From IMG/VR virus record IMGVR_UViG_3300005436_000024, positions 1-34,282 of that record: DNA of 34,282 bases; one strand, given 5' to 3'. The notes under the pieces were generated by a model. The model worked only from the letters and a program-made list of their open reading frames with translations. It did no database searches and was not told where the DNA came from. Position numbers and translations under genes: made by a program. Positions 9,259-31,056 of this stretch are shown piece after piece (the stretch's first letter is position 1; every line of letters starts with the position of its first letter). This stretch comes from a virus.

Positions 9259-9368
9259 GACCATTCCCGCCTTGTACAGCTCGCGCAGCGCCAGACCCAT
9301 CGGTCGCCGAACCTGTTCTCCAGCTGCCAGTTGTGAAGACCAAGCCAGCAGAGGAGGCGGTGCATCAT
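9255..9368 (-). CDS. 37-residue small protein between lysin and HNH genes
   Basis: ATG at 9366-9368 overlaps the endolysin stop (ATGA), and its stop overlaps the HNH start (ATGA). It starts MMHRLLCWLGLHNWQLE and ends VWRCASCTRREWS. The mixture of Cys, His and Trp with a final CxxC is typical of very small phage zinc peptides (LLCxLGLHxW...CxxC). Translational coupling on both sides supports expression. Confidence 0.6.
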   Translation of the reverse strand: MMHRLLCWLGLHNWQLENRFGDRWVWRCASCTRREWS

Positions 9369-10477
9369 GACCCCGGCTTGGCGAAAGTGGCCGCCAGCAC
9401 CTGCCAGAGCGAAGGGGTCGCGGATTCGACTCCATCCTTCCCTGGCGGCCCTGGAGGGCCCTGGGCGCCCGCTGCGCCTGCCGGGCCGACCGGACCAGGC
9501 GCCCCAGCTGGCCCTGGAGGGCCTTGAGGCCCTGGGACGCCCGTGGCGGCCGGCTCGTCTCGCAGCACAAAGAGCGATTTCAGCGCCTCGCCGGCCGGGA
9601 TGGCGGGGGTCGGAGCAGCCGCAGCGAGGGGCGTGCTGGTGTCGAGGATGGCGTCCGGCACCCAGTCGCCCTGGTCCGTCTTCCACCACAGATAGTCCGG
9701 CCCGACCAGGCCGTGACCGTCGAGGTCGGTCGACTGGACCGGATGATCTGACCAGCTGTAGCCAACCGCGTTGATCGAAGCGCCCAGGGCCAGGGCGCGG
9801 CTCGCACCTGACCCGCTGTATCTCTCGCGATAAGCAGAGCCGGCCACGAACGTCTTCAGAGTCGCAACCTTGGCGTGCGTGGCGCCGATGTAAACCATCT
9901 CTTCGACATCTCCTCCAATGGATCCGGATCCGGGCCCAAACACTGGCGTCGACGCGTAGGGATCGCCGCCGGCGAGATAGACCGCGGCTTCGCGGATGAT
10001 GCGATCAGTGTCCAGCGAATCCGGGCAGGCAGTCGCATAGACGGTGCGGTGATCGATCAGGCCGGCGACGCCGGTCTTGGCGTTGCCCCGAACACAGGGC
10101 AGCCTGTAGCGGCGACAGATCGCGGCCACCAGTTGCGCCGACCGCTTGTAGAGCGCGTCAGGCCTTGGCGAGTTGTAGTTGCCGCCGTCCTCGTGCTCGA
10201 TGCCGATCGAGTCGAGGTTGACCTGGTAGTCGCCGGCGTGCCAGGCGGCATCCTTCTCGTCGACCCACTGCACGAGCGAACCGTCGAGGCCGACGCCGTA
10301 ATGCGCGCTCGCCTGCTGTGCTGGGTTCCGGAAGCGCGCCTCAGCGCTGGCGACAGTACCGACCATCGTATGAAGCACAATCCACGATGCCGTCGGCGCC
10401 ATGTAATGGCCGTCGCGATTGAGCGAGAAATTGGGCGATCCGAGCCAGGTCGCGCCAGGATCGCGGTAGCTGTTCAT
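9365..10477 (-). CDS. N-acetylmuramoyl-L-alanine amidase endolysin with collagen-like tail
   Basis: 370 residues from ATG 10475-10477, with AGGAGG five bases upstream. Residues 25-175 are an Amidase_2 domain: WIVLHTMVGT (zinc His about 36), SAHYGVGLDGSLVQWV, GIEHEDGG, then LIDHRTVYATACPDS (second His and Cys). An SH3-like wall-binding segment follows (about 200-290, with YLWWKTDQGDWVPDAIL). Next is a collagen-like G-X-Y stretch (GPQGPPGPAGAPGPVGP and onward) ending GKDG. It should cleave the stem peptide from muramic acid at lysis. Collagen repeats on an endolysin are unusual; they might be a stalk, or the protein could be virion-associated. Confidence 0.9.
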   Translation of the reverse strand: MNSYRDPGATWLGSPNFSLNRDGHYMAPTASWIVLHTMVGTVASAEARFRNPAQQASAHYGVGLDGSLVQWVDEKDAAWHAGDYQVNLDSIGIEHEDGGNYNSPRPDALYKRSAQLVAAICRRYRLPCVRGNAKTGVAGLIDHRTVYATACPDSLDTDRIIREAAVYLAGGDPYASTPVFGPGSGSIGGDVEEMVYIGATHAKVATLKTFVAGSAYRERYSGSGASRALALGASINAVGYSWSDHPVQSTDLDGHGLVGPDYLWWKTDQGDWVPDAILDTSTPLAAAAPTPAIPAGEALKSLFVLRDEPAATGVPGPQGPPGPAGAPGPVGPAGAAGAQGPPGPPGKDGVESATPSLWQVLAATFAKPGS

Positions 10478-10518
10478 GGACACCTCCTTCCCCCGAGATG
10501 GGGTACGCGGTCGAAGCG

Positions 10519-21621: not shown

Positions 21622-23148
21622 CTAGCTCGTGACGAGCACGCGGAAGGCGTTGACGTCCAGCACCCTCGCGTTGTTGCGCCAGAACGCGTAGAAGCCGCGC
21701 TGGCCGAGAGGCCGCTGACCGGCGGGACCGAAGATGTGCGGGATCACCTCGATGTCCATGCCGATGCGGTCGACGATGATGAAATAGCGGGGGTCACCCA
21801 TGACCGCGATCTTGGATCCGGTCGTGAGCGCGGCCACCATGGCCGACGCCTCGTTCGCGCCGTAACCGAGGACCTGGACGCCCAGGTTGCCACCGCGCGG
21901 CACGTCGTTGTCCAGGCCTGCGGGCAGGAAGACCAGCAAGCCGGCGCCGCCGGCGGTGTCGAACTGCCGGATCTTGTTCCAGATGAAGCGGTTGGCGATG
22001 ATCTGCGCGCGGGGGCGGAACCGCGGTGGGACCGCCTGCTCGAGCAGGTAGAGGTCGGCGATCGCGAAGGCGGCGGATCCGCCGGCCGCCTGGGTCGTGG
22101 TTGCGCCGGTGATCAAGCCGGTGGGGTTGTTGGCACCGCCGACGCCGGTCGTGAACTGCACGGCCTCGAGGTCGTCCTTGGCGTCCTGGATCAGGTTGGC
22201 GAGCTCGGTCTGCAGGCCGCCCCAGTCCTGGGTGAGTTCGATGTTGACCGGCACGAAGCAGTCCGCCCGGATCATCAAGAGGTTGGGCTGGGCGAGGACC
22301 GGCGAGTTGTCCGGAGCCTCGACGCCTTCACCCTGGTACTGCGCGGTGACGCCGGCGGAGGTGACGCCACGCCATTCGTTGCCGGGGATGGTGTCCACGC
22401 GACAGATCGCGCGGTAGGGGTTGACGGACAGGTTGCTGGTCGGGATGACCGTGGGGTCGAGCATGTAGGGAACGGCGAAACCACCGGTCGAGCCGACCTG
22501 AACGCCCATGGCGCGGACTAGCTGGACCGCGCGCGCTTCCTCTGCGGTGAAGCCGGCGTCGAAGTAGCCGTGGAGGTGAGCCATCACGGCCTTGCCGAAG
22601 GCGCTGCGATAGGCGGGCGCGCCGGTGAGGAGGATGCGCCGCGAGAGGTAGTCGTCGGTCTCCGAGTAGCGGTCGACCAGGCTTCCGACGTAGGCCTGAG
22701 CGCGCTCCTTGGTTACCGGCCGGCCGCGCAGGTAGGTTCCCTGCTGCCACTCCGGGAAGTGGGCGATCTCGACCGCGCGCATCGCGCGATCGCGGAGCTC
22801 GCGCCGGCTGGAGGCCGGATCGAAGTAGTTGGCGCGCACCGAGGAGACGTCGTAGACCTCGTGCTCAGTCATGCGGGAGATGATCTGGGGCCCGGAGCTG
22901 CGGCCCCCGCCGAAGCCGGTGCCGCGCTCGTGGTGGTTCTCCTTGTCGGCGAGCTCCTTGATGCGCTTGTCGCGCGTGGCCAGCTCGGCCATCACGCGCT
23001 TGTGCTCCTCGAGCTCTTCGGTGTTGGCCTTCCAGAGCTCGCGGACCTCGTCGGTGAAGGCCTCGTCGGGGAACTCGTTGTGCTGGTCGGTGATCCAGCG
23101 CTCGAGCTCGTCCATGCGGGTTTGACGTTCGTCGCGGGTGAGCGGCAT
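21622..23148 (-). CDS. HK97-family major capsid protein
   Basis: 508 residues. The N-terminal 90 residues are a charged coiled-coil delta-like domain (ERWITDQHNEFPDEAFTDEV, RDKRIKELADKENHHERG) that should act as scaffold and be removed by the protease encoded next to it. The rest has capsid features: GSTGGFAVPYMLDPTVIPTS, ADCFVPVNIELTQDW, GVGGANNPTGLITG, and near the end FYAFWRNNARVLDVNAFRVL. It is longer than the usual 300-400 residues because of the N-terminal region and an insert of about 100 residues (SSRRELRDRAMRAVEIAHFP to AVMAHL). No separate scaffold gene is seen, as in HK97. Confidence 0.95.
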   Translation of the reverse strand: MPLTRDERQTRMDELERWITDQHNEFPDEAFTDEVRELWKANTEELEEHKRVMAELATRDKRIKELADKENHHERGTGFGGGRSSGPQIISRMTEHEVYDVSSVRANYFDPASSRRELRDRAMRAVEIAHFPEWQQGTYLRGRPVTKERAQAYVGSLVDRYSETDDYLSRRILLTGAPAYRSAFGKAVMAHLHGYFDAGFTAEEARAVQLVRAMGVQVGSTGGFAVPYMLDPTVIPTSNLSVNPYRAICRVDTIPGNEWRGVTSAGVTAQYQGEGVEAPDNSPVLAQPNLLMIRADCFVPVNIELTQDWGGLQTELANLIQDAKDDLEAVQFTTGVGGANNPTGLITGATTTQAAGGSAAFAIADLYLLEQAVPPRFRPRAQIIANRFIWNKIRQFDTAGGAGLLVFLPAGLDNDVPRGGNLGVQVLGYGANEASAMVAALTTGSKIAVMGDPRYFIIVDRIGMDIEVIPHIFGPAGQRPLGQRGFYAFWRNNARVLDVNAFRVLVTS

Positions 23149-23153
23149 GTGGG

Positions 23154-24275
23154 TCAGAGCCTCCTGTTGGGATTCCGGATCACGACCAGCGGCGCTGGGC
23201 GGTCCGGATCTGAGTGGCTCTCTCCGTGCGAGTGAGGCTGACCCTCGGCGGCCTTGCGCGAGAGGGTGGCGACTTGCGAGAGGGCGGCAGACGTGGGTGC
23301 GGATTCGATCAGCTGTCGCAGGCGCTCCGGATCGCTCAGGAACGCGGCGAAGATGAACTCGTCGGTCAGTGAACGCAGGCCGGCAGTGGCGCCGGCATAG
23401 GCGGGAAAGGTGACGGGCCCGAACTCCATCATCCGGAGCGACTTGACCGTTCGCTCAGGGATGCCTTCGGGGTTGTAATCACTTCGTTCCGGCTTGTTGT
23501 TGAAGTCCTGCTCGAGGACCTCAAAGCGGAAGGACGCGCCGTAGAGGCCGGCCTCGAGGCCGGGGATCAGGTCGCGGTTGTAGGAGGTGTCGAGCATGGG
23601 CGCCGCGTAGGCGACGCCGGTCTTGTCCTCGGTCAGCTCCTCGATCGGACCCAGAGGCTTGTTGCCGATCTGGGGATCACGGCCGTGCTGGAAAAGGACG
23701 CGCATCGAGGCGCGGTCCTCCTTGATGGTCTGCGAGAAGGCTCCTGGAGCCAGCTGCTCGAGGAACCGGCCTTCGAAGATGGAGTCGATCTCCGTCCACT
23801 GGTTGAACACGGCCAGGTGACCGCTGAGGGTCGGCATCGAGGCTCCGTTGGCGGCCGCACGCAACGCGACGCCGTCTCGGATGGCGCGGATCAGGTTGGC
23901 CCGTGGCGGTCCATCACTGCGCGGCTGTCCGGCAGGTGGTTTGGATGCTGCTTGGATCTGCTTCATGTGCGCCTGGAGATGAGCCTCAGCAGCCGCGCGG
24001 TTGATGAGGCCCTGCGTCTGGGGCAGCCGGCCGAGTGCGTTGCGCACGCCCGAGGCGTTGGCGGGAGCGCCAGGGCGAGCGTGATGCGGAAGTGCCCAGG
24101 CGTCCTGCTTTGAACTGTCACCCGCGCGCTTGCCGGCGCAGATCGCGCCATAGCAGGACGCCGGCGTGGATGACTTCGCGCAGCTGGACATCGCCGCTCC
24201 GCCGTCCCAGCTCCCGTTGTCGATCGCGCGCTCGAAGTGCTCGAGGTCTGAAGGATCGAGGTTCGGTCGTGGCAT
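23154..24275 (-). CDS. Prohead maturation protease (HK97 type)
   Basis: 373 residues from ATG 24273-24275, with GGGAGAGGTG just upstream. Residues 40-110 are a helical N-terminal domain (AICAGKRAGDSSKQDAWALP, HHARPGAPANASGVRNAL, INRAAAEAHLQAHM) often seen fused to this protease in actinophages. The protease domain is at 145-260: SGHLAVFNQWTEIDS, APGAFSQTIKE, LFQHGRDPQIG (catalytic His197) and GLYGASFRFEV (catalytic Ser248). It cleaves the capsid delta domain during head maturation. The C-terminal tail is His/Ser/Pro-rich. Confidence 0.92.
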   Translation of the reverse strand: MPRPNLDPSDLEHFERAIDNGSWDGGAAMSSCAKSSTPASCYGAICAGKRAGDSSKQDAWALPHHARPGAPANASGVRNALGRLPQTQGLINRAAAEAHLQAHMKQIQAASKPPAGQPRSDGPPRANLIRAIRDGVALRAAANGASMPTLSGHLAVFNQWTEIDSIFEGRFLEQLAPGAFSQTIKEDRASMRVLFQHGRDPQIGNKPLGPIEELTEDKTGVAYAAPMLDTSYNRDLIPGLEAGLYGASFRFEVLEQDFNNKPERSDYNPEGIPERTVKSLRMMEFGPVTFPAYAGATAGLRSLTDEFIFAAFLSDPERLRQLIESAPTSAALSQVATLSRKAAEGQPHSHGESHSDPDRPAPLVVIRNPNRRL

Positions 24276-24300
24276 ATCACCTCTCCCGATTCGCTCGCCC

Positions 24301-24876
24301 TTACTGGAGCAGCGCGTATGGCTGAACCGCCAGAACTGTCGGCGATGCCAACGTCGCTGGAGCGATGCTTGCGGCTCCGGTGTAGGTGGCGCAGACCACC
24401 GGCCAGCCACCCAGCGTGTTGAGGGCGGCGCCGACGGTCGCGTTGAGGGCGGTGACCTTGCCGATCAGGGTCGGGATCGTGGTTCCGGTGACGCAGATGG
24501 CCGCGTAGTAGAGACCGTCGGCCGGAACCACATAGGGCGTGACCAGGGTGCCGGTGAAGGCGGTGTTGGCCGCCATCGAGGCCGCCGCCGCGTCGGCACT
24601 CTGCGCCAGCAGCGCCGGCGTTGCCGCTGTGCTGTAGAGCGCGGTGTACTGATGGGTCAGCGTGGCGCCGGCGGTGGCGCCGACCAGGAACGAGATCTTG
24701 CTGATGGTGCTGCCCTGGCGCAGCGGGATCGCGACCGCGGTCATCAGGCCTGTGGCGCCGATCGCGCAGTCGGTCGTGATCTGGTCGTGTGGGAAGTTCT
24801 CGAACAGCGTCGCCGATGGCGACCCGAGGAAGAGGTAGTCGCGCATCGAGAGTCCACGGAAGTCGCCAGCTGGCAT
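24301..24876 (-). CDS. Virion protein, possible head fibre or decoration
   Basis: 191 residues, Ala/Thr/Val-rich and beta-like: AVAIPLRQGSTISKISFLVG, TLTHQYTALYSTAATPALL, VVPADGLYYAAICVTG. It begins MPAGDFRGLSMRDYLF. Such proteins, made of a single beta sandwich, are found near capsid genes of GC-rich phages and in tail fibres. Its place between portal and protease favours a head function, but no family is assigned. Confidence 0.6.
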   Translation of the reverse strand: MPAGDFRGLSMRDYLFLGSPSATLFENFPHDQITTDCAIGATGLMTAVAIPLRQGSTISKISFLVGATAGATLTHQYTALYSTAATPALLAQSADAAAASMAANTAFTGTLVTPYVVPADGLYYAAICVTGTTIPTLIGKVTALNATVGAALNTLGGWPVVCATYTGAASIAPATLASPTVLAVQPYALLQ

Positions 24877-24879
24877 GTC

Positions 24880-26370
24880 TTACTCCTTCGGAGGTGTTTT
24901 GGCGGGCAGCGCCGGCGTGCCCGGAGGTGGGGTTCCGTTCTTCTTCGCCGGCTCCGGCAGAGCCGGTGGGGGCGCGTTAGGTGTGAACGAGGTCTGCGGC
25001 GGCTGGAGCTGGACCGAGAAGAGCCCGGTGTGGACCAGGCGGCTCCAGTCGTGCGCCTGGATCGCGGCGACGATCGAGTCCGGCTTGTAGCCGGCGTCGA
25101 TCAGGGTCCGAATCGATGCCGACTCGACCTGCTGGATGTCGGCGAGATCCTTGGCGTCCTCGCGCAGGAACGCGATGTCGCGGGTGTCGTACCAGAGCTG
25201 CGAACCGCCGGGCACGTTGACCAACGACTCGAGGGATCCGCAGGCATTCCGCCACAGCGGCCGCAGGGTTCCGTCGCCGAAGCGGCGGACCGACTGGCCG
25301 TAGTTGTTGTACGTGCCGGCGGCCAGGCCTTCCGAGAGGCCGACGATGATCGGAGGCACCCCGGCTGCAGCGGCGATGCGGGTTTCGCCTGCGCCCTGCG
25401 TGACCTTGAAGTCCATCTGCCGGAAGTCGGCGCCGACCGTTTTGACATCTGCTCCGCCGCCGAGGTAGAGCGTGCGGTAGGCGTTCATCGCGCCCTCGTG
25501 CTGAGTGCGGAAGATCTTGATCCAGCGGTCGAAGGCCTCGGCCTGGATGGTCGGGTCCAGCGAGACGACCATGTTCACGGTCGCTCCGTTCTCGAAGAAC
25601 TTCAGTTTGTGCGTGGTCGCCGCCGAGTCACCCATCACCTCGCGCAGGATCGGCGTGATCCAGCTCATGCCTCGATAGGAGGCGATCGGGTCAGGGATGG
25701 GCGCGAAGTGACAGACCTCGTCGACGCCGAGCGCGATCGGATCCGCCTGGCCGCGCGGGCCGCCCGGATGGTAGAGGTAGCCGATGACCTCGGAGTCGAT
25801 GTCGCCGGCGACGAAGGCATCGTCGTTGGCGGGATTGCGCGACCCGATCATGATCGTGACCCAGTCCGGCCGCAGCCGCTTGATGGTTCCTGGCGCCGGT
25901 CGGTCGGGACGATTGCTGCCGCGAACGCCGTAGAAGTTGCCGGCCAGGTCGGCGTCCTGGATCATCCGCGTCAGCAGGTCGCCGGTCGTGCCGTTGGGCC
26001 AGGGATGCTCGAGCGGACCGAGCGCCGGGCTCCCCCAGAGGTCCTGCGGCTGCCCGTTGCCCTGGCTCCCCAGCCGGCGCCACTGGAATCGCGCCTCGCT
26101 GAAGATCATGAGCCGGGCGAGGACGCAGGCGAAGACGATGCCGTTCGACTGATAGGCGCCCTGGACGTAGCCGACGAAGCTCTGGGCGATGTCCTCGCGG
26201 TTGCCGAGCAGCGTCTGCGAGGGGATGAAGGGGTACTGGACGCCGCCGAAGGTGAAGAACTGCAGCCACTGGTCGAGCGAGATCGACGGATCGAGGGCTC
26301 GTTCAGCATCGAGCTTGGCGGGCTTGCGCGAGAAGTCGATCTGCAGGCCGCCCGGGAGGGCCAGCTTCAT
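24880..26370 (-). CDS. Portal protein (HK97 family)
   Basis: 496 residues. Portal signatures include SNGIVFACVLARLMIFSEAR, LLTRMIQDADLAGNFY, DEVCHFAPIPDPIASYRGMS, THKLKFFENGATVNMVVSL and IIVGLSEGLAAGTYNNYGQ followed by RRFGDGTLRPLW. The C-terminal 60 residues are Pro-rich. It forms the dodecameric DNA gate of the head. The start overlaps the TerL stop. Confidence 0.94.
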   Translation of the reverse strand: MKLALPGGLQIDFSRKPAKLDAERALDPSISLDQWLQFFTFGGVQYPFIPSQTLLGNREDIAQSFVGYVQGAYQSNGIVFACVLARLMIFSEARFQWRRLGSQGNGQPQDLWGSPALGPLEHPWPNGTTGDLLTRMIQDADLAGNFYGVRGSNRPDRPAPGTIKRLRPDWVTIMIGSRNPANDDAFVAGDIDSEVIGYLYHPGGPRGQADPIALGVDEVCHFAPIPDPIASYRGMSWITPILREVMGDSAATTHKLKFFENGATVNMVVSLDPTIQAEAFDRWIKIFRTQHEGAMNAYRTLYLGGGADVKTVGADFRQMDFKVTQGAGETRIAAAAGVPPIIVGLSEGLAAGTYNNYGQSVRRFGDGTLRPLWRNACGSLESLVNVPGGSQLWYDTRDIAFLREDAKDLADIQQVESASIRTLIDAGYKPDSIVAAIQAHDWSRLVHTGLFSVQLQPPQTSFTPNAPPPALPEPAKKNGTPPPGTPALPAKTPPKE

Positions 26371-27947
26371 ATGTAGGCGACCAGGGGCTCGGGCGGTGGT
26401 ACGTTGCCGCCCTTCTCGAGAGCAGCTCCTCGAGCCACCTCGGCGAGGATGCCGGCGACGAAGGCGTCGATGTGCCCGCCGTCGTGCTTCTTGATCACCT
26501 TCAGGTAGTGCTGGGTCACGCTGATCGCCTCCTCCGGCCGCGATTGCTTGCGCGAACCCTTGCTCAGTGCCGCCGCCTTGGCGTGGGCGGCGAGAATCTC
26601 GTTACCGTCGTGGGTGAAGTCGCCGGCGAAGGCGACCTGGAAGCGAGAGATGGCATCGTCCATCCGCCGCTCGGTGTTGGTCGAGAACTCGACGATTCGT
26701 TTCGGCCAGCGGCCCGCCCAGACGTCGAAGTACTCCTGCCAGTGGGCCGGCTCGCCGAACAGGAACTTGACCTCGTAGGCGTTGAAGGCCTCGGTGACCG
26801 CCTTGTCGACCGCGGTTCGCGGGATCTTCTCGTCCTCGAACGCAGCTGCGTCCCACGTGTTCAGGTGGAACCAACGGCCATCGCTCACCCGGCTCGCGAC
26901 GAGAGATGCGGACTGACCGCGAGCGCCGAAGAAGCCGAGCGCGATCAGCTGCTTCGGCTTCAGGTCTCGCGGCCGCGCCAGCGCGTCCCATCTGGTCGGA
27001 TCCACCGCCGGCGACATGCCGACCACCGGCAGGTTGAAGAAGTAACGCAGCGCGTCAGCTGGAGTCGGACAGACCGCGGGGTCGCGCGCGTCGGCAAGGA
27101 TGCGGTCCGGATCCACCCACCAGGAATCGCCGTAGACGAAGCGCAGCAGCTCGAGCGCGTCGACGTCGTCGTCGAGCTCGGGATGTCGCGGCGGCGGCCG
27201 GTAGTCGATGAAGACGTCGCGCGCCGGGCTCTCGTGCGTGCGCTGCGCGATCGAATTCTCGGACGGGTCGTACATGTTGGTGGTCTCCATCCACCGTCCG
27301 CCCATGCCGGCGAGGTTGCGTTTCATGGTCGTGGCCAGCAGCACGCCGCCGCTGGTCTCAGTCATCAGGTGCGGCTCGTCGAAGAGCGCGAAGGTGATGC
27401 GAGCGCCGAGCCGAGCTCGGCCGGAGGCGGTCATCGGCTCGATCTTTCCGCCCGAGGGAAGGTTCAGGTCCATGAGCCCGATGTCGAGGCCGGCGAGATC
27501 CGCGATCGGTCCGCGCCTGGCCATCTCATAGACGGAGAGCCAGACGTTGTCGGCCTGCTCCTCGGACGTGGCCACGATCTGGACCCACGGTGTGGGATGC
27601 GGTCGACCGACCGGTTCGCCGGCGGAATCCCAGCCGTCAAAGACGACCGGACCGAGCGCGTAGGCGAGGCAGATTGCGCCGCCGAACGGTGACTTGCCCC
27701 ACTTCTGCGGCCGCACCAGCTGCGCGCCGCGGTAGAGGAACGCGGCTGATGGCCGGTTCTCGAGGACCTGGGCGTTGGGATGAAGCCTGAAGAAGCGCAG
27801 CAGGAAGCCGAGCATCTCGTCGGTCAGCCGATAGGGCTCATCCTGGTGCAGTCCGTCAGGGATTACGCAGTTGGCTTCGATCCACTCGCCGACGAGATAG
27901 CCGAGGGTCGGGAACTCGCCCTTGGTTCGAGGGCCTCGCCAAGGCAA
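26367..27947 (-). CDS. terL: Terminase large subunit (ATPase; nuclease motif altered)
   Basis: 526 residues. The ATPase domain has a Walker A-like RPQKWGKSPFGGA (about 79-91), Walker B TFALFDEPHLM and coupling segment WMETTNMYDP. The C-terminal RNase H-fold nuclease is recognisable (LIALGFFGARGQSASLV, FLFGEPAHWQEYFDVW, HDGGHIDAFVAGILAEVA). In related phage terminases the first motif reads GFDGS; here Phe340 replaces the metal-binding Asp, and the second motif has GEP in place of ADP. The third Asp (HIDAF) is kept. Packaging motor function is clear; nuclease activity is doubtful or uses other residues. Length is typical of the family. Confidence 0.93.
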   Translation of the reverse strand: MPWRGPRTKGEFPTLGYLVGEWIEANCVIPDGLHQDEPYRLTDEMLGFLLRFFRLHPNAQVLENRPSAAFLYRGAQLVRPQKWGKSPFGGAICLAYALGPVVFDGWDSAGEPVGRPHPTPWVQIVATSEEQADNVWLSVYEMARRGPIADLAGLDIGLMDLNLPSGGKIEPMTASGRARLGARITFALFDEPHLMTETSGGVLLATTMKRNLAGMGGRWMETTNMYDPSENSIAQRTHESPARDVFIDYRPPPRHPELDDDVDALELLRFVYGDSWWVDPDRILADARDPAVCPTPADALRYFFNLPVVGMSPAVDPTRWDALARPRDLKPKQLIALGFFGARGQSASLVASRVSDGRWFHLNTWDAAAFEDEKIPRTAVDKAVTEAFNAYEVKFLFGEPAHWQEYFDVWAGRWPKRIVEFSTNTERRMDDAISRFQVAFAGDFTHDGNEILAAHAKAAALSKGSRKQSRPEEAISVTQHYLKVIKKHDGGHIDAFVAGILAEVARGAALEKGGNVPPPEPLVAYI

Positions 27948-27956
27948 GCAGACCTC

Positions 27957-28106
27957 TTAGAGCAGCAGGCCGAGCGCGAGCAGGAAGAGAACGATCAGCA
28001 GGATCTTGCCTGTGAGTTCGGCGATGCCGACCAGGACCAGGAAGAGCAGGATCAGAGCCAGGATGGCGCAGATCCGACCGATGCCAAACGCCGTTACTCG
28101 ACTCAC
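27957..28106 (-). CDS. 49-residue two-span membrane protein between TerS and TerL
   Basis: GTG 28104-28106 has AAGGAGAG about seven bases upstream; stop TAA at 27957-27959. The protein has two hydrophobic helices, ICAILALILLFLVLVGIAEL and ILLIVLFLLALGLLL, joined by a Thr-Gly-Lys turn and preceded by a short polar N-terminus with Arg. It is shorter than common gene-calling limits but has a good ribosome site and fills the gap between the terminase genes. A holin-like role is possible; it is far from the lysin. Confidence 0.75.
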   Translation of the reverse strand: MSRVTAFGIGRICAILALILLFLVLVGIAELTGKILLIVLFLLALGLLL

Positions 28107-28119
28107 GTAGCTCTCTCCT

Positions 28120-28548
28120 TCACTCGACGGCCTTCAGGCGATCGCGGATATCGAGGACCTGGCCGGCAATTGCTCCGACAACGTCTTCCTCGATCGTCCA
28201 CTTCAGCCGCAGCATGCTCATCGGCGTCAGGCCGAGCCGATCCTCGAGCTGGCGGGCCTCAATCAGATGCGCGGCCTTGGCATTGCGGCGCTCAGCTGCA
28301 GCGAGGATCCGCGCGTAGCGAGCGACGACGTCGTACCAGCCGAGCTGCTCCCACGCCACGGCTTGCGGCGTCTTCCACAGACGTTTCCAGAGCTCAGCCT
28401 CGCGCTGTGATGGTTTGCCGAGCGGCCAGATCGGCGCTTTGCCGTTCCGGCCATCCGCCGGCAGCCGCGTGGATGCGCGATCAGCGAGATTCCTACCGCG
28501 ACGTCGCTGCTGCTCGCTCGGCTTCGGCGCCGGCCCCATACCGGCCAT
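28120..28548 (-). CDS. terS: Terminase small subunit
   Basis: 142 residues; the start overlaps the HNH stop (TGATG). The sequence GMGPAPKPSEQQRRRGRN, then KAPIWPLGKPSQREAELWKR, TPQAVAWEQLGWYDVVARYA, and EARQLEDRLGLTPMSMLRLK matches small terminase proteins of actinophages. It recognises phage DNA and loads the large subunit. It lies between an HNH nuclease and TerL, the usual order. Confidence 0.88.
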   Translation of the reverse strand: MAGMGPAPKPSEQQRRRGRNLADRASTRLPADGRNGKAPIWPLGKPSQREAELWKRLWKTPQAVAWEQLGWYDVVARYARILAAAERRNAKAAHLIEARQLEDRLGLTPMSMLRLKWTIEEDVVGAIAGQVLDIRDRLKAVE

Positions 28549-29033
28549 CAGGCAATGCGAAAGCGAGTCTCAGACTCGTACTCGACTTCCAGACTTGTAC
28601 GCAGCGCGAGCGGCTGGGACCGGGGTCTCGGGCCGGCTGAGCGGTGAGTTTTTGAACCCGCCCCCCCTGCCTTCAGATCGACCCCCCTTTCCATCGGCGA
28701 AGAGGACGACGTGCTGTCACCCTTGGCGTCATTGCAGGAAAGACAGAGGATGTCGACGTTGCTGCGTTCGGAAAGACCCCCCATTGAAACAGGGGTGCGA
28801 TGGTCGCCCGTCAGTCGCTCTGCAGGGTGGGCTGCACGGCCGTAGCCGGGACAGATCCAGCCGTGCAGGGCCACATGCTCACGGATCATCGTGCGGACTA
28901 GCCGGCGCCAAGCGCCATCGTATCCACGCTGGGCTGCTGATCCGCGTGCCCGCCCCTTAGCGCGACGGTGCGTTTCACAGCGGCTGTCGTTTGAGAGCCC
29001 CCCGCAATCCAAGCACGGCCGCAGCAGGGTCAC
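28548..29033 (-). CDS. HNH endonuclease next to terminase
   Basis: 161 residues from GTG 29031-29033, which overlaps the preceding stop (GTGA). It begins TLLRPCLDCGGLSNDSRC, then has RGYDGAWRRLVRTMIREHVA, and the HNH core LTGDHRTPVSMGGLSERSNV followed by ILCLSCNDAKGD. The C-terminal 55 residues are Ser/Arg-rich. HNH proteins beside terminase genes are needed for cos-type end cleavage in some HK97-like phages, and this one could supply nicking that the altered TerL may lack. Confidence 0.9.
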   Translation of the reverse strand: MTLLRPCLDCGGLSNDSRCETHRRAKGRARGSAAQRGYDGAWRRLVRTMIREHVALHGWICPGYGRAAHPAERLTGDHRTPVSMGGLSERSNVDILCLSCNDAKGDSTSSSSPMERGVDLKAGGAGSKTHRSAGPRPRSQPLALRTSLEVEYESETRFRIA

Positions 29034-29440
29034 CTCTTTTTGCTGGCCCCCTTCTTCGCTGGAGTCGGCTTCGGCGCTGGCTTGGTGTCGTACTTCGGCT
29101 TGAGCACAGCGCCGCCGGCGGCGGGTGTGCTGACCCCCATCGCCATCAGTTGCCGTTCCGGAGAATGGCAACGCCGGACATGGGCCGCGCGCGCGCCATC
29201 GAGGGCCTTGAAGAGCAGACGGAGGCCTTCTTTCGCCTGGGGGCTGCCGCGACGGGCGAGCTCTGCCAGCAGCTGGTTGATCGAATCGATCAGCTCGCCG
29301 ACTCGCGGAGCGGCGCGCATCATCATCTCCTGGTTCATCTGCGCGACCTGGTTCTTGAGCTCCGCGTTCTCCCTGCGCAGGTAGGTCTCGGGCGAGATCG
29401 CATTTGGACCGTGGACCTTGCTGAAGCGCTCTTCGCTCAT
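29030..29440 (-). CDS. Coiled-coil protein with basic tail
   Basis: 136 residues from ATG 29438-29440, with AAGGAG upstream; the frame extends upstream but overlaps the previous gene. The first 60 residues form a coiled coil (PETYLRRENAELKNQVAQMN). The C-terminus is a Lys/Pro/Ala repeat-like tail (PKYDTKPAPKPTPAKKGASK) that should bind nucleic acid. No family recognised. It lies just before the HNH/terminase set. Confidence 0.65.
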   Translation of the reverse strand: MSEERFSKVHGPNAISPETYLRRENAELKNQVAQMNQEMMMRAAPRVGELIDSINQLLAELARRGSPQAKEGLRLLFKALDGARAAHVRRCHSPERQLMAMGVSTPAAGGAVLKPKYDTKPAPKPTPAKKGASKKR

Positions 29441-30633: not shown

Positions 30634-31056
30634 TCACTCACGGCCCACCTCCTCGGAGAGGTCAATCTCCCACGCCGGCGGCCCGACCAGCGCATAACGC
30701 TTAGAGCAGGCCACGCTGACCACCTGGCTGTCGTCCTTGAAGGCCACGCCATTGAGCGCGTCGAGCACCGTTTTCAAGTAATTGTCGACGTCCGGACGCG
30801 TGACCGGCAGAGCACTGTCACGTCGCTTCTTGGGGATCGATTGCGGCATCGCCAGCAGGGCTGTGATGGCAAGAGAGACTGGACCGACCCAGGCCTCGTG
30901 TTGCGGGAAGGTCTCACAGAACGTGGTCCGGATCCGCCATTCGGCATCCTTAGTCTTCGCCGGCGTGTAGATCCGCGCCTGCCCTCCACGAAAGCTCGCC
31001 CGCGGCCGTGCCTTAGCGACCGGATCCGTGACCACGCGGAAGGTGAGTCGGCTCAT
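30634..31056 (-). CDS. rusA: RusA-family Holliday junction resolvase
   Basis: 140 residues; the start overlaps the ATPase stop (ATGA). RusA features: VAKARPRASFRGGQARIYTP near the N-terminus, then RPDVDNYLKTVLDALNGVAF (catalytic Asp residues) and DDSQVVSVACSKRYA. It cuts four-way junctions made by replication and RecT recombination so that DNA can be packaged. Length is typical. Confidence 0.93.
   Translation of the reverse strand: MSRLTFRVVTDPVAKARPRASFRGGQARIYTPAKTKDAEWRIRTTFCETFPQHEAWVGPVSLAITALLAMPQSIPKKRRDSALPVTRPDVDNYLKTVLDALNGVAFKDDSQVVSVACSKRYALVGPPAWEIDLSEEVGRE

Follow-up and report, generated by a model that had tools for sequence, protein, structure and literature searches.

The large terminase subunit (TerL) of the virus record analysed here, a stretch of 34282 bases called the window below, has Phe where most of its relatives have the first catalytic Asp of the nuclease. 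We see about an even chance that this protein is a working packaging motor whose nuclease is no longer catalytic, with the HNH endonuclease encoded beside the small subunit (TerS) most likely making the cut. In textbook terminases a single protein holds both motor and nuclease, and an HNH protein next to a terminase is usually regarded as a helper. In the arrangement proposed for the window, TerL would still drive DNA packaging as a motor, its RNase H-like nuclease would be non-catalytic because Phe replaces the first Asp, Ser the second hairpin Asp and Glu the Asp of motif II, and the HNH protein would free each genome from the concatemer. This would be an exaggerated form of the arrangement in HK97, where the HNH protein gp74 helps TerL to cut cos.

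Genomic setting of the terminase

The window holds all or most of the genome of a temperate tailed phage, with genes for an integrase, RecT, YqaJ, an amidase, a tail protein, the capsid, the portal, RusA and a protease. On the minus strand the order is HNH (29171-28548), TerS (28548-28120), a 49-residue hydrophobic protein (28106-27957), TerL (27947-26367) and portal. The preliminary description had placed an HNH gene next to TerS, and the two genes indeed adjoin, the HNH gene being intact.

30634 to 31056, minus strand: RusA-like resolvase, a second candidate nuclease (PF05866, 4e-28)
28548 to 29171, minus strand: HNH endonuclease with the intact motif GDHRTP...N...LCLSCN (PF01844, 7e-07)
28120 to 28548, minus strand: TerS (PF25673 Terminase_7, 2.2e-11)
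27957 to 28106, minus strand: small hydrophobic protein of 49 residues between TerS and TerL (sequence reading)
26367 to 27947, minus strand: TerL, 526 residues, TTG start (phrog_19179, 3.5e-74; phrog_9, 3e-39)
24880 to 26370, minus strand: portal protein (PF04860, 1.4e-35; 96% identity to the portal of contig L001)

The closest relatives of the window TerL are those of the contigs L001 (82% identical) and L002 (78%). Between the window and L001, identity is 93 to 98% for the major capsid protein (MCP), the protease and the portal, with dN/dS values of 0.06 for MCP, 0.11 for the protease and 0.09 for the portal, while TerS is 62% identical (dN/dS 0.30) and HNH 51% identical (dN/dS 0.22). TerL contains no stop and no frameshift. 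The constrained MCP, protease, portal, TerS and HNH genes, together with the unbroken TerL, favour a working phage without proving it, and we infer that the window phage is viable. Over positions 21622-29171 the similarity to L001 changes in an abrupt step, from 96% for the portal and 98% for MCP to 82% for TerL, 62% for TerS and 51% for HNH, with a mosaic joint at the TerL-portal border. Elsewhere in the window, positions 9365-10483 encode an Amidase_2 endolysin with a collagen-like repeat close to its C-terminus.

Motor half and predicted fold of TerL

No Pfam model matched the window TerL, whereas the terminase families phrog_19179 and phrog_9 did, and its family profile is that of a tailed-phage large terminase (phrog_9, HK97-like). 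Both ATPase motifs expected of a large terminase, Walker A and Walker B, are intact.

26976 to 27947, minus strand: ATPase half, residues 1-324, under normal constraint (window-branch changes 16 replacement, 24 silent)
27687 to 27713, minus strand: Walker A, RPQKWGKSP, residues 79-87 (alignment with relatives)
27375 to 27392, minus strand: Walker B, FALFDE, residues 186-191 (alignment with relatives)
26370 to 26975, minus strand: RNase H-like nuclease half, residues 325-526, under relaxed constraint (G20c match; 27 replacement, 12 silent)

The predicted model (mean pLDDT 89.9, pTM 0.65) contains both the ATPase and the RNase H-like nuclease fold of a large terminase, and in it the nuclease domain is complete and not reduced. 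The closest solved structure is HK97 TerL (6z6d, Z 27.6, rmsd 16.1 over 432 residues, with a shift between the domains), and the nuclease half alone matches G20c TerL (5m1o, Z 17.7, rmsd 3.1, 174 residues).

Loss of nuclease-site residues

Three of the four positions that were followed in the nuclease site are altered in the window TerL.

26928 to 26930, minus strand: codon 340 (TTC), giving Phe at the position of the first catalytic Asp (HK97 D302; alignments, codon reading)
26910 to 26912, minus strand: codon 346 (TCC), giving Ser at the position of the second hairpin Asp, as also in L001 and L002 (alignment)
26751 to 26753, minus strand: codon 399 (GAG), giving Glu at the position of the motif II Asp (HK97 D388; alignments, codon reading)
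26466 to 26468, minus strand: codon 494, GAC, motif III Asp kept (alignment, codon reading)

These positions were compared in 129 near-full-length terminases including the window, a count that leaves out duplicate contigs as well as genes that are fragmentary, split, intein-bearing or ATPase-only. At the first position 113 have Asp and 15 His, with Phe only in the window; at motif II 112 have Asp, 15 Thr, Ser or Ala, one a gap and the window alone Glu; and 125 have the second hairpin Asp. Read together in the order 340, 346, 399 and 494, the states are DDDD in 109 terminases, HDTS in eight, HDSS in six, HDAS in one, DSDD in two (L001 and L002), and DADD (L129), DD-- (L052) and FSED (the window) in one each. 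The preliminary description had claimed a Phe at residue 340 instead of the first nuclease Asp, a changed second motif and a retained third Asp, all of which agree with these data (TTC at 26928-26930 against Asp in 113 of 129; Glu399 against Asp in 112 of 129; Asp494); the change to Ser346 had escaped it.

An alignment of TerL relatives, proposed in that description as a check, puts Phe340 in the column of the first catalytic Asp. The catalytic centre of HK97 TerL consists of D302, D388 and D471 (PMC9410871), all of which HK97 keeps where the window has Phe first and Glu second, and a family profile of 51 sequences aligned to 6z6d (E 2.4e-8) sets F340 on D302 and E399 on D388, the numbering offset of this tagged construct having been counted by hand. 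The possibility that an alternative Asp fills the same place, raised beforehand as the observation that would speak against the claim, was looked for: residues 329-355 of the window TerL contain no acidic residue, which by sequence rules out a neighbouring Asp standing in for the lost one.

Phe340 is known from one sequence, since both sisters, L001 and L002, keep the first Asp (GFDGA in the first motif, GDP in the second and IDA in the third), and no second record with Phe340 was found among the relatives searched. A codon-pattern search for GFFGARGQ in viral contigs gave one match, in L027, whose reading frame is not a terminase.

Of the residues that mark a catalytic RNase H-like nuclease, the window thus lacks the first-strand Asp (Phe340) and has an acid in motif II (Glu399) and the motif III Asp (Asp494). 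Because Asp494 and Glu399 remain, some metal binding is conceivable. A nuclease that is still active, or that nicks, would build on these two acids, which together with other ligands would form a rearranged metal site, and Glu at motif II is known from other terminases; with both hairpin acids gone, no acid in residues 329-355 and relaxed constraint on the domain, we consider such a site quite improbable. A non-catalytic nuclease is the reading retained here: judged from the replaced residues and the model, the window nuclease domain would be enzymatically inactive, and a loss of nuclease function is likely.

Constraint on the two halves of TerL

The nuclease half of the window TerL has lost constraint and the motor half has not. 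Changes on the window branch were polarised with 11 outgroup terminases, a test that supersedes the unpolarised branch test because L001 and L002 share a stem. On this branch the nuclease half has 27 replacement and 12 silent changes; for the ATPase half the counts are 16 and 24 (Fisher p = 0.013). Within the nuclease half, residues 325-410 have 20 replacement and 5 silent changes (p = 0.002) and residues 411-526 have 7 and 7 (p = 0.55), the boundary at residue 410 having been picked after seeing the data. A weaker tendency in the same direction is seen on the stem shared by L001 and L002 (nuclease half 15 and 11, ATPase half 9 and 15, p = 0.17), and unpolarised tests of the L001 and L002 tips gave no split between the halves (p = 1.0 and 0.75). 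A recombined segment was considered as a source of the changes, but there is no clear indication of one, as residues 325-410 do not consistently exceed the rest of the gene in silent differences. The loss of the second hairpin Asp shared by the window, L001 and L002 suggests that change at the site predates the window's split from them.

A nuclease half that evolves nearly neutrally also fits a failing gene, which counts against the explanation preferred here. The window could belong to a failing or defective prophage lineage that lost its nuclease and packages nothing, so that the change would be harmful decay instead of a division of labour. Phe340 was found once, residues 325-410 (chosen post hoc) drift at about the neutral rate on the window branch with their 20 replacement and 5 silent changes, and the phage carries an integrase and may sit in a host chromosome. 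We nevertheless regard decay as unlikely, if far from negligible, given that the ATPase half is still constrained on the same branch (16 replacement, 24 silent), that HNH, portal, protease and MCP are constrained relative to L001, and that TerL has neither frameshift nor stop, where an old decaying gene would lose its motor too.

A sequencing or assembly error at codon 340 has a very slim chance of being the explanation. The window is a single metagenome contig, but turning GAC or GAT into TTC takes two base changes and codon 399 a third, separate one, all without a frameshift. The surrounding excess of replacements, moreover, is confined to the nuclease half, and random error would not pick one domain.

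A clade with His at the first position

The family search also yielded terminases with GFHG, CTP and ISA instead of GFDG, ADP and IDA. A scan with the C-terminal domain gave 20 contigs, 19 of which (L131-L149) cover the first motif and have His there without exception, the remaining one (L150) being a fragment with the third motif only. The His clade comprises 20 records, some of them near-identical (L131-L149 and L030, the latter from a Nocardioides assembly). At motif II ten of the 20 have Thr, eight Ser and two Ala, and at motif III every record has Ser. The second hairpin Asp is retained, and so are the Walker motifs where covered, except that L133 carries an intein-like insert in its Walker A region. 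In both domain trees (short searches, SH-aLRT only) the His records form one clade and the window is placed elsewhere with L001 and L002, so the first Asp was lost at least twice in this family. Clade and window share the TerL family, the missing first Asp and the kept ATPase motifs, and an HNH gene lies upstream in many His-clade records; the clade differs in its His, Thr/Ser/Ala and Ser residues, in keeping the second hairpin Asp and in the conservation of the domain, and it represents an independent event.

In three members (L102, L030 and L090; L102 and L131 are one contig, as are L090 and L134) the terminase nuclease domain is under strong selection although the catalytic acids are gone: dN/dS is 0.035, 0.057 and 0.065 at dS 0.46-0.57. 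Nine pairs of intact relatives, with the pair L091-L094 left out because one codon aligned, range from 0.050 to 0.324; the four at similar distance (dS 0.52-0.80) lie between 0.195 and 0.324, the two more distant ones (dS 0.95 and 1.21) at 0.274 and 0.120, and the three closest (dS 0.09-0.22) at 0.050, 0.086 and 0.165. Strong purifying selection in these three members without catalytic acids makes the domain seem needed, and it probably has a second role. In the model of a His-clade TerL the terminase fold is preserved, with matches to HK97 (Z 28.2) and to the G20c nuclease (Z 18.6, rmsd 3.1, 176 residues). L102 and L090 are 94% identical in the C-terminal domain against 63% in the ATPase half, which implies that the domain may have been exchanged between phages.

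Ku and HNH genes were compared in 47 records (13 His, 33 Asp and the window), picked mostly for length. Ku occurs in 4 of the 13 His-clade records, in none of the 33 Asp records and not in the window (p = 0.004, uncorrected for kinship), and this absence rules out Ku as part of the window's arrangement. The phage Ku genes are at L136:680-1465 and L141:550-1386, in both cases near the HNH gene, and in the contigs of L131 and L144. Ku is also present in Omega-type phages, where it is thought to help genome circularisation.

Losses in other actinophage terminases

Outside this family, the Omega-type (cluster J) mycobacteriophages Redno2 and KashFlow, which belong to a different phrog_9 branch, have a TerL without any of the three acids and combine it with HNH and TerS just upstream. 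They resemble the window in this gene order and, for KashFlow, in a phrog_9 TerL; their TerL branch is distant, and the Redno2 TerL gave no BLAST match to the TerL of the window or of L136. The Firecracker TerL lacks the acids of motifs II and III, that of FirstPlacePfu lacks those of I and III, and Kromp, with a TerL of the same family as the window, has all three.

Of 62 further terminase loci listed from actinobacterial genomes, among them L160-L162, which repeat Asp-type genomes already counted, 58 had the first position aligned. It is Asp in 47, Lys in 7 and Ala, Val, His or Glu in one each of these listed matches; single rows are uncertain owing to low-identity alignments, and as only the best matches are represented, the 11 of 58 without Asp are no frequency. 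The Lys rows (L203, L207, L214, L216, L217, L220 and L221) are of actinobacterial prophage type, and six of the seven read G-V/I-K-F. In the motif II column each of the seven still has Asp, and they are therefore unlike the window.

Phi29 offers a further parallel, its gp16 having a vestigial nuclease in which the first-strand Asp is Tyr (PMC7672431). Both proteins keep the motor and the nuclease fold and have an aromatic residue for the first-strand Asp. Phi29, however, packages unit-length genomes without TerS (PMC9410871), whereas the window has TerS and HNH, which implies cutting from a concatemer, and its modelled nuclease is a full domain; the reduced fold and missing TerS of the phi29 type are thus not what is seen here.

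The candidate cutter and the division of labour

The repeated loss of the site in related phages suggests that another phage enzyme cuts, and position and precedent make HNH the likeliest one. In HK97 the HNH protein gp74 promotes cos cleavage and its gene is part of the packaging set (PMC9410871), all cluster O phages have an HNH gene upstream of the terminase that is implicated in packaging (PMC4351075, which also describes a Ku-like protein for this cluster), and in cluster J phages HNH genes lie close to the terminase (PMC3706429). The passages on clusters O and J say nothing about nuclease residues of the terminase. The window has the same setting of an HNH-motif gene beside the terminase genes (PF01844, 7e-07), intact, abutting TerS and constrained (dN/dS 0.22 against the L001 HNH), and by position its product would take a gp74-like role in cos cleavage.

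An HNH gene as a specific companion of Asp loss is unsupported by the comparison set. PF01844 was found in 20 of 33 records with the first Asp and in 9 of 13 His-clade records (p = 0.74), many of these records being fragments; in contigs of 30 kb or more the counts are 19 of 31 and 7 of 8 (p = 0.23), and all five His-clade contigs above 60 kb have the gene. Being about as frequent with intact TerLs, HNH predates the loss and is not its specific partner.

A cutter other than HNH, be it the RusA-like resolvase (30634-31056), a host enzyme or the terminase of a co-infecting relative, is given a small chance. The HNH gene has the RusA gene about 1.5 kb upstream of it. The 13.6 kb of L001 that were compared, reaching only about 6 kb beyond TerL on the upstream side, yielded no RusA homologue, however, and packaging precedent exists for HNH alone (PMC9410871).

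The division of labour between motor and nuclease that the preliminary description had proposed is therefore plausible and partly supported. In its favour, both hairpin acids are gone, motif II is altered, Walker A and B are unharmed, only the nuclease half shows relaxed selection, and an intact HNH gene abuts TerS; the similar frequency of HNH beside intact TerLs (p = 0.74) lends no backing to the part in which HNH would supply the cut. The best support for the idea comes from the His clade, in which the three acids are replaced, with HNH in all five contigs above 60 kb, and from the Omega-type phages. In the open-access literature searched, no title or abstract opening reported HNH-phage terminases without catalytic acids.

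More broadly, and tentatively, with the chances somewhat below even, tailed actinophages may have repeatedly turned TerL into a pure motor and moved the cut to HNH. The window would be a recent case that is still drifting and the His clade an old, settled one in which the former active-site pocket (His, Asp, Thr/Ser/Ala, Ser) serves a new, conserved function, and Ku, in part of the clade, would perhaps join the ends left by HNH. The single window case is modest, and the main interest lies in the repeated loss, settled in one clade. Natural terminases that lack the catalytic acids and come with TerS and HNH make the question of who cuts cos in HNH phages directly testable, and such a test is feasible as Omega-type phages grow on a laboratory host.

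Other departures from the usual layout were seen among the terminases collected. Very long ones of 789 to 954 residues occur in L133, L145, L174 and L151:3045-5414, and L174 and Redno2, like L133, have an intein-like insert at Walker A. In L023, L048, L049, L058, L179 and L190 the terminase appears to be split, with ATPase and nuclease encoded by different genes, and those of Nyceirae and Isolde are annotated as split. Split terminases such as that of Gordonia phage Nyceirae share with the window the separation of motor and nuclease, the nuclease being a separate gene there and fused but lacking its acids in the window.
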